Under the pieces are notes generated by a model, which saw only the letters and a list, made by a program, of their open reading frames with translations, made no database searches and was not told the DNA's origin. Below, piece by piece: positions 19,345 to 28,383 of a stretch of DNA of 41,221 nt. The position numbers and the translations under genes are program-made. This DNA comes from Paenibacillus bovis. Its GTDB lineage: Bacteria; Bacillota; Bacilli; Bacillales; Bacillaceae_C. The stretch is taken from NCBI GenBank assembly GCA_007679095.1, contig VEFU01000040.1:1-41221 (forward strand), in the 5' to 3' direction. How positions within the stretch are numbered: position 1 is the first letter of the stretch; every line of letters starts with the position of its first letter.

Positions 19345-19611
19345 CAATGTAACCTATTTTGGTTAAATCCCTAATGGAGGGCACTATTCGCCTTGATTAA
19401 TGACCAATCCTTATAAAATCTCTAATCAAGGTCTCTATTCCTCTTGATTAATGACCTATTATCATAAAATCTATTATTCAGGGCTCTATTCCAGATGATT
19501 CGTTACCTATTTGGATAACTTCCTTAATTAAGGGCATTATTCAACCAAAATATTGACCGAATCCTTTAAATTCTTGAATACAGGTCACTATTCAATCCTC
19601 TTTTACCACAT
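19345..19611. repeat. Degenerate tandem array, 51-bp period
   Basis: A CTATTC core recurs at 19384, 19435, 19486, 19537 (TTATTC) and 19588, exactly 51 bp apart each time. Around it the consensus is roughly ATCTCTAATCAAGG-GCTCTATTC-CTTGATTAATGACC with an AT-rich joiner. The best unit forms a hairpin, TAATCAAG (19423-19430) with CTTGATTA (19443-19450). The array lies between two convergent genes, with no ORF. Confidence 0.85.
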
Positions 19612-21749: not shown

Positions 21750-22330
21750 ATTGCAAATATAACCTGTGTATCCGCAAGATTAGTGGGATGTCCTGCAAGA
21801 AAGTGAGCAGTTGTCTCAAGATTATGGAGTGAACCCGCAAGAATAACAGGTGATCCCGCAAGATTGCAAGGGAGTTGCAAGAATAACCTGTTTATCCGCA
21901 AGATTAATGGGATGTCTCGCAAGAAAGTGAGCAGTTGCCGCAAGATTATGGAGTGATCATGCAAGAATAACGGGTTATTCCGCAAGAATGCAGGGGAGCT
22001 GCAAAAATAACCTGTTCAACCGCAAGATTAGTGGGATATCTCGCAAGAAAGTGGGCTGTTGCCTCAAGATTATGGAGTGAACCTGCAAGAATAACGGGTG
22101 ATTGGGCAAGAATCCAAGGGAGCTGCAAAAATAACCTGTTCAACCGCAAGATTAGTGGAATATCTCGCAAGAAAGTGAGCAGTTGCCGCAAGATTATGGG
22201 ATGAACATGCAAGAATAACAGGTGATCCCGCAAGATTAACAAGTGAACCCGCAAGAATAACAGCCGAACCCGCATGAATAAAATGCGATCTCCCAAGAAT
22301 GTACGTGAGTTGCAAGGATCAAGTTCGATA
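21750..22330. repeat. 21-bp tandem array in 124-125 bp higher-order blocks
   Basis: About 27 units begin GCAAGA and are mostly 21 bp long, with some of 19, 20 or 22 bp. Units cycle through six types (GCAAGATTAGTGGGAT, GCAAGAAAGTGAGCAG, CAAGATTATGGAGTGA, GCAAGAATAACAGGTG, GCAAGATTGCAAGGGA, GCAAGAATAACCTGTT). The first type recurs at 21773, 21898, 22022 and 22146, i.e. steps of 125, 124 and 124 bp. The last block breaks down. The array fills the space between two divergent genes. Minus-strand frames through it are open only because 21 is a multiple of three. Confidence 0.9.
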
Positions 22331-23984: not shown

Positions 23985-25049
23985 ATGGACTTCGATATTT
24001 TATATTTGTCCTTCAATGTTATACAAGTTGAAGGTAATGACGACAATGCTACAAAACATTATAAACATTTTCAAACATTAGATACAGACGAGTATGAACA
24101 ACATGCGATTAAGGATTTCCTTGATGGTGAATTAACAAAAATCGTCAAACGAAAAGTGGAACGCCATCCAAAATCCGATACAGTACCCACAAAATTGGGA
24201 CGTTTTATCGTGGAAGAAGGGCATGAGCTTAGTTCCAATCCAAATTACAATTTATTACATCGCTTAAGGACAGCAGAACAAAAAGCTGATTTTCAAAATG
24301 CAAGCGAAGAATTATTGCGAGCGTATCTTGATACGAGTGCTGTTCGTGGCGGAGCATTTCTTGTAGCTGCTGCAAAACCAAAAAAGTTCTTCGATGATCG
24401 TTTTGTCTTTATGATGAAATGTGACTTCGAACCAAAGGTAGCATCCATTTCCGATGAATCGACTTTAATCAAAAATGTAGAAATGGCGATTACTACAAAG
24501 AACATGAAATCCATTCAGTATCCTTATATGCCAGAAGATGGCATGGTAGTAGAGAGCGAATTAAAGATTCATCAAGCTTCACATGCACGCTACTTTGAAG
24601 ATTTTTTAAAGTTTGTGGAGTATGGAGAGCCAATGCCAGAGATTTTACGTAATCAAGTAAAAACGATGGTAGAAGAACATTTCCATGAGGTATTAGAGGA
24701 TAATAGTGAAGAACTTCAGCAGTTCGAAAAAGAAATGGAAATCTGGGAAGCGAGTCCTCAAAGGGAAATTCAGGAGCGTTTAACAACAGAACAAGTAATG
24801 GAAGCTACAGCGCAAATTGTAGAAGTTGCACCTGAAACAGAATTGAAATTAAAAATTGGCGACACCTCTATCAAAGGAAAACTAGCCGATTTTGGAGAGA
24901 ACATCCATTTAGCAAAAATAAACCACAAATATGTTTTATTAGTAGAAGCAGATTCTGTTATTTTTGAAAAAGGCGTATCCCCAATCGAATTTCATCGGCC
25001 AGATGACCTGCATAAAACAATTGAGCGTATTCAAAATAAAACTATTTAA
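23985..25049 (+). CDS. DUF3900-like protein of unknown function
   Basis: This 354-aa soluble acidic protein begins MDFDILYLSFNVIQVEGNDD and contains blocks I associate with the Bacillus DUF3900 family: YKHFQTLDTDEYEQ (about 26-39), LGRFIVEEGHELSSNPNYN (about 74-92), and KCDFEPKVASISDE (about 145-158). No catalytic motif or membrane segment is visible. The C-terminal third (about 280-350) looks like a separate small beta domain. The family assignment is from memory of these blocks. ATG start with AAGGTGAG. It is transcribed alone and ends at the terminator at 25054-25091. Confidence 0.7.
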   Translation: MDFDILYLSFNVIQVEGNDDNATKHYKHFQTLDTDEYEQHAIKDFLDGELTKIVKRKVERHPKSDTVPTKLGRFIVEEGHELSSNPNYNLLHRLRTAEQKADFQNASEELLRAYLDTSAVRGGAFLVAAAKPKKFFDDRFVFMMKCDFEPKVASISDESTLIKNVEMAITTKNMKSIQYPYMPEDGMVVESELKIHQASHARYFEDFLKFVEYGEPMPEILRNQVKTMVEEHFHEVLEDNSEELQQFEKEMEIWEASPQREIQERLTTEQVMEATAQIVEVAPETELKLKIGDTSIKGKLADFGENIHLAKINHKYVLLVEADSVIFEKGVSPIEFHRPDDLHKTIERIQNKTI

Positions 25050-25050
25050 T

Positions 25051-25096
25051 AAAAAACTAGCTTATCCTTTTAACATGGGATAAGCTAGTTTGCTAT
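25051..25096. terminator. Bidirectional terminator with 14-bp stem
   Basis: AAACTAGCTTATCC (25054-25067) pairs perfectly with GGATAAGCTAGTTT (25078-25091). The U-rich tail is better on the minus side (TTTTTTATT). Confidence 0.8.
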
Positions 25097-25137: not shown

Positions 25138-26110
25138 CTTGTATGATTCCTATTCATGCGTGTTTTTCATTTCAGCGGGAATCATATGGTGGTTTTGATT
25201 CCCATTCAGAACTGTTTGTCATTTCAACGGGAATCATACGACGGCTTTGATTCCCATTCACCACAATTTTCCACCGCAACGGGAATCATAATGCCGCTTT
25301 GATTCCCATCCTCACCTATTTTTCACTCCAATGGGAATCATACGACTTGTTTGATTCCCATGCACGACTGTTTTTCACTTCAACCGGAATCATTTGGCCA
25401 CTTTGATTCCCATCATCACCTATTTTTCACTCCAATGGGAATCATACGACGGCTTTGATTCCCATTCACACATATTTCCCATCTCAACGGGAATCATACG
25501 ACTTGTTTGATTCCCATGCACGACTGTTTTTCACTTCAACCGGAATCATTTGGCCGCTTTGATTCCCATCATCACCTATTTTTCACTCCAACGGGAATCA
25601 TACGACGGCTTTGATTCCCATTCACACATATTTCCCATCTCAACGGGAATCATTCGGCCACTTTGATTCCCATTCACCACAATTTTCCACCTCAACGGGA
25701 ATTATAATGCCGCTTTGATTCCCATTCAGAACTGTTTGTCATTTCAACGGGAATCATACGACGGCTTTGATTCCCATTCAGAACGATTTTTCGTTTCAAC
25801 GGGAATCATACAGCCGTTTTGATTCCCGCTCCAATCAGTTTTTCTTCTAAACGGGAATCATTCAGTAGCTTTGATTCCCATTCAGAACGATTTTTCGTTT
25901 CAACGGGAATCATACAGGGGTTTTGATTCCCGCTCCATGCAGTTTTACTTCTAAACGGGAATCACTCGGCAGCTTTGATTCCCATTCACATCAATTTTCC
26001 ACCTCAACGGGAACCATAATACCACTTTGATTCCCATCATCACCTATTTTTCACTCCAAGGGGAATCATACACCACCATCAATTCCCACTCATACTGTTT
26101 TTTCACTTAG
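25138..26110. repeat. 52-bp tandem array of hairpin units, 18 copies
   Basis: GGGAATCA, or a one-base variant of it, begins at 25177 and every 52 bp after that up to 26061, 18 times with no drift. Each unit is GGGAATCA, a variable loop of about 11 bases (for example TACGACGGCTT or TTGGCCACTTT), TGATTCCC, then a spacer like ATTCACAACTATTTTTCACTTCAAC. The 8-bp arms pair perfectly in most units. The loop and the middle of the spacer vary. The array starts after the terminator of the DUF3900-like gene and runs into the last codons of the GH95 gene (stop at 26090). Confidence 0.95.
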
Positions 26111-28366
26111 TTGTGACTCATACACGAAACTTTGACCTGGTGCAATTTCCACTTCAAATACTTTTCCTTGACTATGTGGTAATCTAATTTTACATACTCC
26201 ACCTTTTTCAGATGTTATTGCCATATACTCTAATTGTTCGTTACTCCACTTGATTTCAACCTCAAATCCACCGCGTGCCTTTAATCCTTTAACACTACCT
26301 TCTTTCCAAGCTTTCGGAAGTGCTGGGAGGATATGAATTACATCATTGTGGCTTTGCAACAGCATTTCTGCGATTCCAGCAGTTCCTCCAAAGTTCCCAT
26401 CAATTTGAAAAGGTGGATGATTATCAAACATATTAGGTAATGTTGATGATTTCAATAATTCGTGAACATTATTGTATGCACGTTCACCGTCATGCAGGCG
26501 AGCCCACATATTGATAATCCATGCACGACTCCAGCCAGTATGACCACCACCATGCTGTAATCTCCGTTCTAATGTCACTTTTGCGGCCCGTGCCCATTCA
26601 TCCGTTACTCCAGGTACAATTTGCTTTCCAGGATGGAGAGCGAATAAATGGGATATATGCCGGTGTCCAGGTTCCGCTTCATCGTAATCTATATACCATT
26701 CTTGGATTTGGCCATGTTTTCCGATTTTCGGTTTCGGTAACTTATCCCGCAAATGAGCTAACTCCTGACGAAACTCTTCATCGATATCTAATATCTCACT
26801 AGCAGAAATACAACTGGAGAAAAGCTCATAAATGATTTGACTGTCCATGGATGGACCTTCACATAAAGTTCCTCTTTCTCCATTGGACAAAATATAAGTG
26901 TTCTCTGGAGATACAGATGGTGTTGTAATAAGCTCACCAGTAGGAGTTTCTACTAGATAATCAACGAAAAATAACGCTGACTCTTTAATTGTCTCATATG
27001 CATTTTTCAAAAATGAAGTATCCCCGTTATATTCAAAATGCTCCCACAAATGAAGACATAGCCATGCTGCTCCTAATGGCCATATCGTAGCAGGCATATA
27101 GATGTCTTGTGGCGCAGTGTCTCCCCAAATGTCTGTATTATGATGAGCTGTAAAACCTCGACAGCCATACATAATTTCAGCTGTCTTCCTACCTGGTTCT
27201 CGCATCTTCTCAATGTGATCAAATAACGGTTGATGACATTCGGATAGATTACAAACCTCTGCAGGCCAATAGTTCATTTGTGCATTAATATTTATCGTAT
27301 ATTTACTATCCCATGGCGGGAGCATACTCTCGTTCCAAATTCCCTGCAATGTAGCTGGTAAGGAATTGGGGCGACTACTAGAAATAAGCAAATAACGCCC
27401 GAAGTGAAAATACGTACTAATTAAATCCGCATCTTCTTCCCCGTCTTTTAATAACTGTAGTCTCTCATCGGTTGGAAGTTGGCGCTTATCGTTTTCTTTT
27501 CCTAGCTCTAACTCAACACGGTTAAACAATGATTGATAATCGTCTTGGTGATTCTGTAGCAAATCAAGATAACTTATGTTAGCTGCACTCTCTAACACTT
27601 TCAGGCATTGAAGCTCAGGTTCCACGAAACGATAGGAAGTTGCGGCAGCTATTAAAATCGTTACTGCATCTGCGTCTTTCACAATGAGTCGATTTCCAAT
27701 CGTTGTTACTTCTCCATTTTCAGGTATAACCCTCACACCACTTCGGAAGCTGATCCCATTTCCGCCGCCGGTCTCCCCGCGCATTATTAAACAATTAGAA
27801 TGTAAGGGTACTGTCTCATCTAAGTTGCGCGTATTCCCACGATCATAGTGCAGTTGAAATGAAATTGCTCTTTTTTGAGAAGCTGTTATTCGCATCATGA
27901 TGACTTCATTAGGATAACTCGCAAATATCTCTCGCTTATATTCGACACCATTGTATTCGTATTCAACGTTTACTAATCCGTTGGCAAGATTTAATTCTCG
28001 TCTATAGTTAGTAGCGAGTTCCTGACGATGATGGAAGTTAATCCATACATCTCCCAGTGGTTCATAATGACGCTGTGATTCAGGAATTCCAACGAGTGCA
28101 AGTGCAGCTAATTCCTCTGCCTCTCTTATCCTACCTTCAGCTAACAATTCTCTTACTTTTGACAAATTGCGAAGTGCATCAGGGTTGTTTCTATCTCTTG
28201 GGCCTCCGTACCATACAGAATCTTCGTTGAGCTGAATCCGCTCATTTCCAACTAGACCAAAAACCATAGCACCTAGTCTTCCATTTCCAATTGGCAATGC
28301 TTCATTCCAATTTCTAGCAGGCTGTCGATACCAAAGCAATTTATTGTTACGAGTAACATTTGTCAT
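26090..28366 (-). CDS. Glycoside hydrolase family 95 (alpha-L-fucosidase / alpha-L-galactosidase type)
   Basis: GH95 enzymes remove terminal alpha-1,2-L-fucose or L-galactose by inversion. The 758-aa protein has the N-terminal beta-sandwich (WNEALPIGNGRLGAMVFG, about 20-37; QLNEDSVWYGGP), the (alpha/alpha)6 barrel with INAQMNYWPAEVCN (paired active-site Asn) and the general-acid Glu in PSVSPENTY, and a C-terminal beta domain. There is no signal peptide, so it acts in the cytoplasm. The start is ATG 28366 (AAGGGA upstream), 17 nt after GH43, so it is the last gene of the GH8-isomerase-GH43-GH95 unit. In a xylan context the target is probably an L-galactose or fucose side unit. The final codons lie in repeat-like sequence. 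Confidence 0.9.
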   Translation of the reverse strand: MTNVTRNNKLLWYRQPARNWNEALPIGNGRLGAMVFGLVGNERIQLNEDSVWYGGPRDRNNPDALRNLSKVRELLAEGRIREAEELAALALVGIPESQRHYEPLGDVWINFHHRQELATNYRRELNLANGLVNVEYEYNGVEYKREIFASYPNEVIMMRITASQKRAISFQLHYDRGNTRNLDETVPLHSNCLIMRGETGGGNGISFRSGVRVIPENGEVTTIGNRLIVKDADAVTILIAAATSYRFVEPELQCLKVLESAANISYLDLLQNHQDDYQSLFNRVELELGKENDKRQLPTDERLQLLKDGEEDADLISTYFHFGRYLLISSSRPNSLPATLQGIWNESMLPPWDSKYTININAQMNYWPAEVCNLSECHQPLFDHIEKMREPGRKTAEIMYGCRGFTAHHNTDIWGDTAPQDIYMPATIWPLGAAWLCLHLWEHFEYNGDTSFLKNAYETIKESALFFVDYLVETPTGELITTPSVSPENTYILSNGERGTLCEGPSMDSQIIYELFSSCISASEILDIDEEFRQELAHLRDKLPKPKIGKHGQIQEWYIDYDEAEPGHRHISHLFALHPGKQIVPGVTDEWARAAKVTLERRLQHGGGHTGWSRAWIINMWARLHDGERAYNNVHELLKSSTLPNMFDNHPPFQIDGNFGGTAGIAEMLLQSHNDVIHILPALPKAWKEGSVKGLKARGGFEVEIKWSNEQLEYMAITSEKGGVCKIRLPHSQGKVFEVEIAPGQSFVYESQLSEKTV

Positions 28367-28383
28367 GATTTGCAATCCCTTCT

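Follow-up and report, generated by a model that had tools for sequence, protein, structure and literature searches.

A 52-bp tandem array of inverted arms beside a GH95 gene in Paenibacillus bovis, and its place among the constant-size repeats of Bacillus

The locus and the anatomy of the repeat unit

The stretch of DNA analyzed here (the window) comprises 41,221 nucleotides of contig VEFU01000040.1 from Paenibacillus bovis, and contains a tandem array with a period of 52 bp, located between a gene encoding a DUF3900/DUF3898 protein and a convergent gene for a glycoside hydrolase of family 95 (GH95). The features of the region, in the order of their coordinates, are the following (for the 52-bp array, the + strand is the one with the T-rich spacers):

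19365..19600, + strand: second array of the same class, with degenerate 51-bp units GGKCNCTATTC...TTAATGACC, the same 27-bp geometry and other arms
21752..22300, + strand: array of a sister class, with the motif GCAAGA recurring at intervals of mostly 19-21 bp (mean 20.8) and a 124-bp higher-order unit
23985..25049, + strand: DUF3900/DUF3898 gene, 354 aa, upstream of the array and convergent
25055..25091, + strand: terminator-like hairpin AAACTAGCTTATCC...GGATAAGCTAGTTT, recognized from sequence, directly 3' of the DUF3900 gene and unrelated to the array
25144..26087, + strand: tandem array with a 52-bp period, made up of a half unit at its start and 18 complete dyad units GGGAATCA-N11-TGATTCCC
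25177..25203, + strand: first full 27-bp dyad, the next ones following every 52 bp until 26061
25204..25228, + strand: first 25-bp spacer (array spacer consensus ATTCACACCTATTTTTCATTTCAAC, with a T run mid-way)
26061..26087, + strand: last recognizable dyad, with two arm mismatches, 3 bp off the GH95 stop codon
26090..26135, + strand: possible remnant of a 19th unit, weak, reaching into the coding end of GH95 (local score 13, equalled by 38 of 1000 shuffles)
26090..28375, - strand: GH95 gene, 761 aa, downstream of the array and convergent

Tandem Repeats Finder (TRF) delimits the array at 25144-26071, with a period of 52 and 17.8 copies, and a scan for dyads with loops of 9-13 bp recovers 18 of them, with starts running from 25177 to 26061 and all 17 spacings equal to 52 bp, so that the 18 units at an exact 52-bp period proposed in the earlier note are fully confirmed. 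Both arms are perfect in 13 of these dyads, four dyads have one mismatch and one has two, and the 13 perfect GGGAATCA-N11-TGATTCCC sites compare with none in any of 100 dinucleotide-preserving shuffles. Over the 18 units, the arms have a column identity of 0.98, compared with 0.73 for the loop and 0.77 for the spacer, which agrees with the constant arms and variable loops and spacers that had been described; TACGACGGCTT by itself is present in four units. The array lies outside open frames of at least 90 aa, and its 52-bp period is not divisible by 3. The three-unit period of 156 bp outscores that of 52 bp (910 vs. 798 in TRF), indicating that growth has also proceeded by three-unit blocks and that the loop types are not independent of each other.

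The claim that the array ends exactly between two convergent genes stands as far as the orientation of DUF3900 and GH95 is concerned, although the gap is not simply filled by the repeats, as the hairpin of the DUF3900 gene precedes them. The DUF3900 gene was detected in three of 15 other genomes of the genus, in none of the three with an array downstream, and the next gene differs. At the other end, the faint 19th unit overlaps the last codons of GH95, and the array may have expanded into the end of the gene or, conversely, out of it. The notion that the 3' end of GH95 seeded the array was discarded because the match is weak and those 38 shuffles are equally good. GH95 may have been shortened by the array: the motif IR, shared with two relatives (L194 and L195), is followed by 42 residues in these and by 33 in the window GH95, in which the Pfam C-terminal domain aligns over 62 of its 94 positions.

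As regards the two other arrays, AATCAAGGG was considered as the arm of the one at 19365 and, though its dyad scores 10/10 on the TRF consensus, it was replaced by GGKCNCTA and TTAATGACC. Clearer kin of this array adjoin GGGAATCA arrays in C54, C154 and C484, and a related one is found in C522 (L048, L050, L198, L202), from which it follows that some loci combine two arm families. The array at 21752-22300 belongs to the 20-21-nt sister class, so that this class and the 52-nt one are both found inside one window.

Relatives of the array, their phase and their turnover

Tandem repeats of constant size (52 or 20-21 nt) and variable sequence, of unexplained function, were described in Bacillus by Subirana and Messeguer in 2021 (PMC8161180), the first report of the class being, as cited there, a paper of the same authors in J. 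Bacteriol. in 2020. Their study of 176 Bacillus genomes yielded 1886 arrays with units of 51-53 nt, along with 781 whose units measure 20-21 nt, and led to two proposals, a protein polymerizing on DNA or small RNAs (PMC8161180). Table 4 of the study gives B. subtilis 168 as a species lacking arrays of 51-53 nt. The authors consider the repeat sequences species-specific and without conservation and mention that a repeat frequently contains a short signal together with its reverse, while the words palindrom-, dyad and hairpin are absent from the text (PMC8161180). No description of the dyad was found among the matches listed for open-licence full texts. The array of the window is genuine and belongs to this published 52-nt class, having units within the 51-53 length, at least four in number, in non-coding DNA and alongside other families of equal length; the view of the earlier note, to which no described element of this form was known, is therefore contradicted.

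The search of the whole genome for the arm-N11-arm pattern, which the earlier note had suggested, gave 96 perfect GGGAATCA-N11-TGATTCCC sites, and hence the window array is not unique. Arrays of such sites are found on at least 13 contigs (a minimum, because 11 of the 96 sites fall outside the narrower pattern used for this tally), in addition to one lone site between convergent genes. A search of 33 further genomes from the family, 15 of them of the same genus, gave no perfect GGGAATCA site. A scan of a collection of 84,980 species for the dyad plus the next arm retrieved 31 stretches from 10 genomes, bearing the names Bacillus, Neobacillus, Peribacillus and Alkalihalobacillus, with a single MAG accounting for 17 of the 31. 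Neobacillus niacini is an example of a soil bacillus that bears arrays. Adjacent dyads are 51-53 bp apart in 29 of these stretches, as read from the printed units, the exceptions being L020 (one dyad under the filter) and L044 (interrupted by N). The spacers are unlike between most loci and species, and the arms are common to the genome of the window and the 10 others; this half-site, shared by 11 genomes, is new with respect to the published species-specific view. Neither blastn for plasmid or phage carriage nor a pattern search of viral contigs gave any match. Several arm families with periods of 51-52 may coexist, as in genome G000, which carries GGGAATCA, GGKCACTA, GGGCACGT and GGTCGTGA arrays. 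In the A. macyae MAG, 52-bp arrays made of unrelated words (GAGGACA, TGTCCTC) and without a clear 27-bp dyad adjoin GGGAATCA arrays (L022, 3548-3820, and L041, 3483-3652).

A survey made without reference to the arms covered 2.04 Mb, including the window, from eight genomes (six chosen as known array bearers and two congeners). It gave 35 arrays scoring at least 100, of which 14 were set aside as lying in open frames (at least 80% of the array), among them three that are probably members of the two classes (L074, L079 and L083, with periods of 42, 52 and 124). The 21 intergenic arrays, three of which are the window's own, fall into two groups, with periods of 51-52 in 10 cases and of 20-22 or the near-multiples 41, 124 and 249 in the other 11. 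The motif of the 20-bp class recurs mostly every 20-21 bp, with means per array from 19.6 to 20.8, close to two helical turns. Only this class was found in 400 kb of the congener G019, and no 52-bp array appeared in the 80-200 kb sampled from each of G037, G043, G040 and G006. A 249-bp tandem unit of Neobacillus sp. DY30 (L142, 18164-19319) contains 20-21-bp TACCTGC repeats.

The catalogue of the 52-bp class holds 56 arrays, chosen at a TRF period of 50-54, in which the period is 52 in 46, 51 in seven and 53 in three (one array, with a 25-bp span, was dropped before one catalogue-based count). The best dyad span is 27 bp in 54 of the 56, a figure that is partly selected, since 40 of the entries are GGGAATCA-type loci fetched by the N11 search. 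The arrays found without an arm search include GGGCACGTTG-N7-CAACGTGACC, AGTCGCCTAT-N7-ATTGGCTACT, GGGCCTCATG-N7-CATGACGACC and TGGTCGTATG-N7-CATAGAACCA, and in two arrays (L077 and L085) a 25-bp GGTCGTGA...TCTCGACC dyad fits better than 27 bp. Across 377 spacings between units (each step held within 2 bp of the period of its array), 302 equal 52 and 375 lie between 51 and 53, the mean being 51.94 bp or 5 x 10.39 bp per turn, and the period is thus constant across unrelated sequences, its proximity to five helical turns being borne out. In the 39 arrays with 25-bp spacers, positions 11-14 are 56-64% T; 17 of these arrays have their longest T run centred on positions 12-14, and the other 22 have it centred elsewhere. 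This enrichment is given no weight, because the strand of each array was picked by its mid-spacer T content and the enrichment is therefore partly built in.

Evidence of turnover came from a syntenic locus that follows the ordinary terminator of a gene for a 329-aa protein and precedes an IclR-like gene (a label based on reading). Here, OK048 and 7884-1 carry an array, EB106 a degenerate remnant and PL-B1 and DY30 nothing (the array-free loci, L063 and L064, were judged by eye), whereas the sixth close orthologue of the 329-aa gene, that of Marseille-Q6967, lies next to a different gene and is followed by no array. A comparison between strains had been advised in the earlier note, and it does reveal an array that is present, degenerate or absent depending on the strain; on the other hand, the spacers of OK048 and 7884-1 are alike, and in EB106 the spacer is about as well kept as the arms, which do not come out ahead. 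As to the gene context, both neighbours could be called with a crude open-frame caller for 33 arrays (14 of 47 array loci had no called neighbour on one side), and they are convergent in 14, co-directional in 16 and divergent in three, at least one gene 3' end bordering 30 of them; convergent placement is therefore common but not required. Within the 76 of 80 neighbour genes that were scanned (two each of L038 and L023 were omitted, their counterparts in L019 and L016 being included), no Pfam family occurs in more than three.

Arm conservation and the possible explanations

Conservation was evaluated in 48 arrays, eight of the 56 having been dropped from the conservation and spacing set (two for their span or degeneracy and six for having fewer than four usable units). 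The mean identities are 0.92 for arms, 0.82 for loops and 0.80 for spacers, with the arms better conserved than the loops in 42 arrays and than the spacers in 45. Nine arrays were found without an arm search: six have arms better conserved than loop and spacer alike, one shows a tie (L119, 1660), and the arms are the less conserved part in two (L077 and L085). Arms as variable as loops in relatives had been named in the earlier note as the result that would refute its interpretation, and this result is mostly absent, the remnant of EB106 going the opposite way. The dyad itself was evaluated in consensus units: 14 of our own 18 have at least 8 of 10 arm positions matched, compared with 299 of 3600 shuffled units, and the 27 units in Table 1 of PMC8161180 include 17 with a dyad of 8 or more at any span from 21 to 33 and 10 without. 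In these published units, the spans are nearly always odd (25 in 10, 27 in eight, 29 in six and 31 in six, partly nested, and one for all even spans together), while their shuffled versions give 0.06-0.09 per span, at most two at any span in 300 rounds and about one when summed over the 13 spans. The dyad is, consequently, a property of much of the class, and in good part one of 27 bp, and a unit composed of a dyad of about 27 bp and a spacer of about 25 bp is a new addition to the published description.

The way in which the arms vary is informative. Among 325 units of the GGGAATCA type, 287 arm pairs are changed, 276 of them on one side only (51 of these leave a G-T pair) and five with compensation, or five of 156 when each change is counted once per locus; this count excludes units whose arms had over four mismatches or that had no neighbour at the array distance, and the units of one array are not independent in it. 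The commonest change, A4 to C, occurs on both sides (50 on the left and 22 on the right), as would fit a tolerated base of a half-site. Past the arms, no covariation was found at pair 9-19 in 41 arrays (matched in 37% vs. 32% in shuffles), and pair 10-18 is matched in 76% vs. 63%, a weak excess equalled by 228 of 5000 shuffles. The loop measures 11 bp in 240 of 243 units, and the spacer 25 bp in 143 of 182. This covariation test across units, which the earlier note had called for, gives little backing to the emphasis of that note on hairpins.

An element acting through its hairpins would, once transcribed into RNA (or as extruded or single-stranded DNA), form a row of structures recognized by their shape, and could work as a small RNA, a sponge or a structural terminator. 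Both strands do fold far above 20 shuffles each (z of -16.4 and -13.8), which is so because the arms guarantee it. In addition, in arrays with very different arms the two arms of a unit remain complementary (GGTCACTATT/AATAGTGACC, GGGCACGTTG/CAACGTGACC), four arrays with different arms have in common the loop core AAC[CT][CT][CT][CT] (L079, L020, L122 and L125), and a single shape-reading machine would cover differing arms, whereas reading by protein needs several specificities. Related arrays are transcribed in B. coagulans, according to RNA-seq in a follow-up report (PMC8625621), and this lends weak support to the store of small RNAs contemplated in the earlier note, but the transcription carries no tie to function; the transcription barrier and the recombination substrate that the note also listed are hypothetical roles. 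However, the scarcity of compensated pairs, together with the near-invariant loop, argues against a selected hairpin and in favor of two half-sites held at a fixed distance on double-stranded DNA; a loop that is rigid next to a looser spacer fits a rigid two-fold protein, while the loop of a hairpin would accept insertions and deletions. This evidence against a selected stem is likewise an addition to the published description. Moreover, the stem is hardly prolonged inward, the hairpin provides no reason for a period of 51-53 bp or for an 11-bp loop, and a comparison of the 1.1-kb region of the window array with Rfam gave nothing up to E = 1, so that we regard this explanation as rather unlikely. 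We hold a similarly doubtful opinion of a neutral or selfish satellite, whose arrays would expand and contract through unequal exchange and slippage at gene ends, where insertions are tolerated, with a period dictated by the amplification machinery and not by a function for the host. The turnover at the 329-aa locus, the three-unit higher-order repeats of the window array, the few arrays between divergent genes and the lack of relationship among the neighbour genes would all be expected from it, but drift does not predict arms that are kept while spacers differ over most loci and species. No slippage process is known to us by which a unit of 52 bp would become fixed whatever its sequence.

Two further explanations appear much less probable. 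A bidirectional terminator acting at multiple points between convergent genes would suit the position of the window array and the gene 3' ends (crudely called) that border most of the others, and yet co-directional genes flank 16 of 33 arrays and divergent ones three, and an ordinary hairpin is already found before the array both at the DUF3900 gene and at the syntenic 329-aa gene. Intrinsic terminators are made of a GC-rich stem directly followed by a T run; in the units, the stem is followed on the + strand by ATTCAC (CCC-ATTCAC), GCTCC and similar words with no T run, and they were rejected as such terminators. This makes the terminator explanation very improbable. Even less credible is an element of the REP/BIME kind moved by a RAYT (Y1 transposase). 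The array is palindromic, extragenic and multicopy, as these elements are, and matches to Y1_Tnp occur in all 11 array-bearing genomes tested, but they are also found in 13 of 14 tested genomes without perfect GGGAATCA sites, and none of 20 fetched Y1_Tnp neighbourhoods (part of the matches, 19 of them from array-bearing genomes) contains a 51-53-bp array. Furthermore, the units lack the terminal unpaired tag, GTAG or CGTC, that figures in the definition given in PMC3733652. Words of the GGTGCCTGTCACC type lie close to several of the Y1_Tnp (RAYT-like) genes in these neighbourhoods, numbered L173-L192 (for example L173, L176, L177 and L179), and perhaps constitute a separate REP-like family.

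Phased binding sites and comparison with known systems

The explanation that we favor over a hairpin or RNA element and over a neutral or selfish satellite, with a probability of about one half, is that the array is a phased row of protein-binding sites, a role for the constant arms already put forward in the earlier note and supported, as a reading of the sequence, by the present data. Each 52-bp unit would serve as one site for a DNA-binding protein that is sequence-specific and probably a dimer, the site consisting of two inverted 8-bp half-sites with the consensus GGG[A/C]ATCA, whose centres are 19 bp apart, followed by the 25-bp spacer. With a period near five helical turns, all sites would share the same face of the duplex, so that neighbouring dimers would be able to touch and could build a regular filament at gene ends. 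The data establish the geometry, the conservation of the half-sites and their nearly fixed distance, the phase and the turnover of the arrays, whereas the binding of a protein, its dimeric state and its cooperativity are inferred; as to the purpose, our best guess would be a contribution to nucleoid structure at a local scale, or an insulation of adjacent gene ends from each other. Several facts run counter to the binding-site explanation: the 76 scanned neighbour genes hold no evident candidate for the protein; the several arm words within one genome would need either several proteins or one of broad specificity; perfect sites are missing from the 33 further family members searched; the arms do not lead in three of the nine arrays found without an arm search; the spacer is kept about as well as the arms in EB106 and is alike in OK048 and 7884-1; 10 of the 27 published units have no dyad of 8 or more; and the 27-bp span is partly selected in 40 of the 56 catalogued arrays.

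A more general and tentative proposal, which we put forward as a possibility, is that of a satellite chromatin of Bacillales, in which related and fast-diversifying DNA-binding proteins may, at many gene ends and in phase with the helix, coat the 52-bp dyad arrays (five turns) as well as the direct arrays of 20-21 bp (two turns), thereby organizing or insulating the chromosome. The class had been presented as enigmatic, lacking both a conserved sequence and a function, and the shared half-site and fixed geometry make it testable. Should a protein bind, common soil bacteria would have a new chromosome-organizing system; should there be none, some other physical cause would have to account for the constancy of the 52-bp period, and that would be equally instructive.

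Among the known systems, CRISPR arrays have invariant repeats, unrelated spacers and adjacent cas genes. They resemble the present array in their regular palindromic units, and differ from it in that here the spacers are mutually similar, the centre of the palindrome is variable and the unit is one conserved module; the window array was rejected as a CRISPR because its loops vary, its spacers are alike and its immediate neighbours are DUF3900 and GH95. REP/BIME repeats, which flank the RAYT gene, are likewise clustered extragenic palindromes, but the units of the window have no tag and a rigid period, and no link to a transposase was found for them in the Y1_Tnp neighbourhoods fetched. The 20-21-nt class shares some genomes with the 52-nt class, lies mostly in intergenic DNA and also combines a constant motif with a variable spacer at a period of about two turns; its motif, in contrast, is directly repeated. 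It is the published 52-nt class that the array resembles in its period of 51-53, its four or more units, the several families per genome, the non-coding location, the patchy occurrence among species and the turnover among strains, and the published B. alkalitelluris family 4_52_27 carries GGGAATCA and ATTCCC. What sets the present description apart from that view of species-specific sequences is that the unit is here resolved into dyad and spacer and that, while spacers differ between most arrays, the half-site of the window is shared with 10 other genomes.
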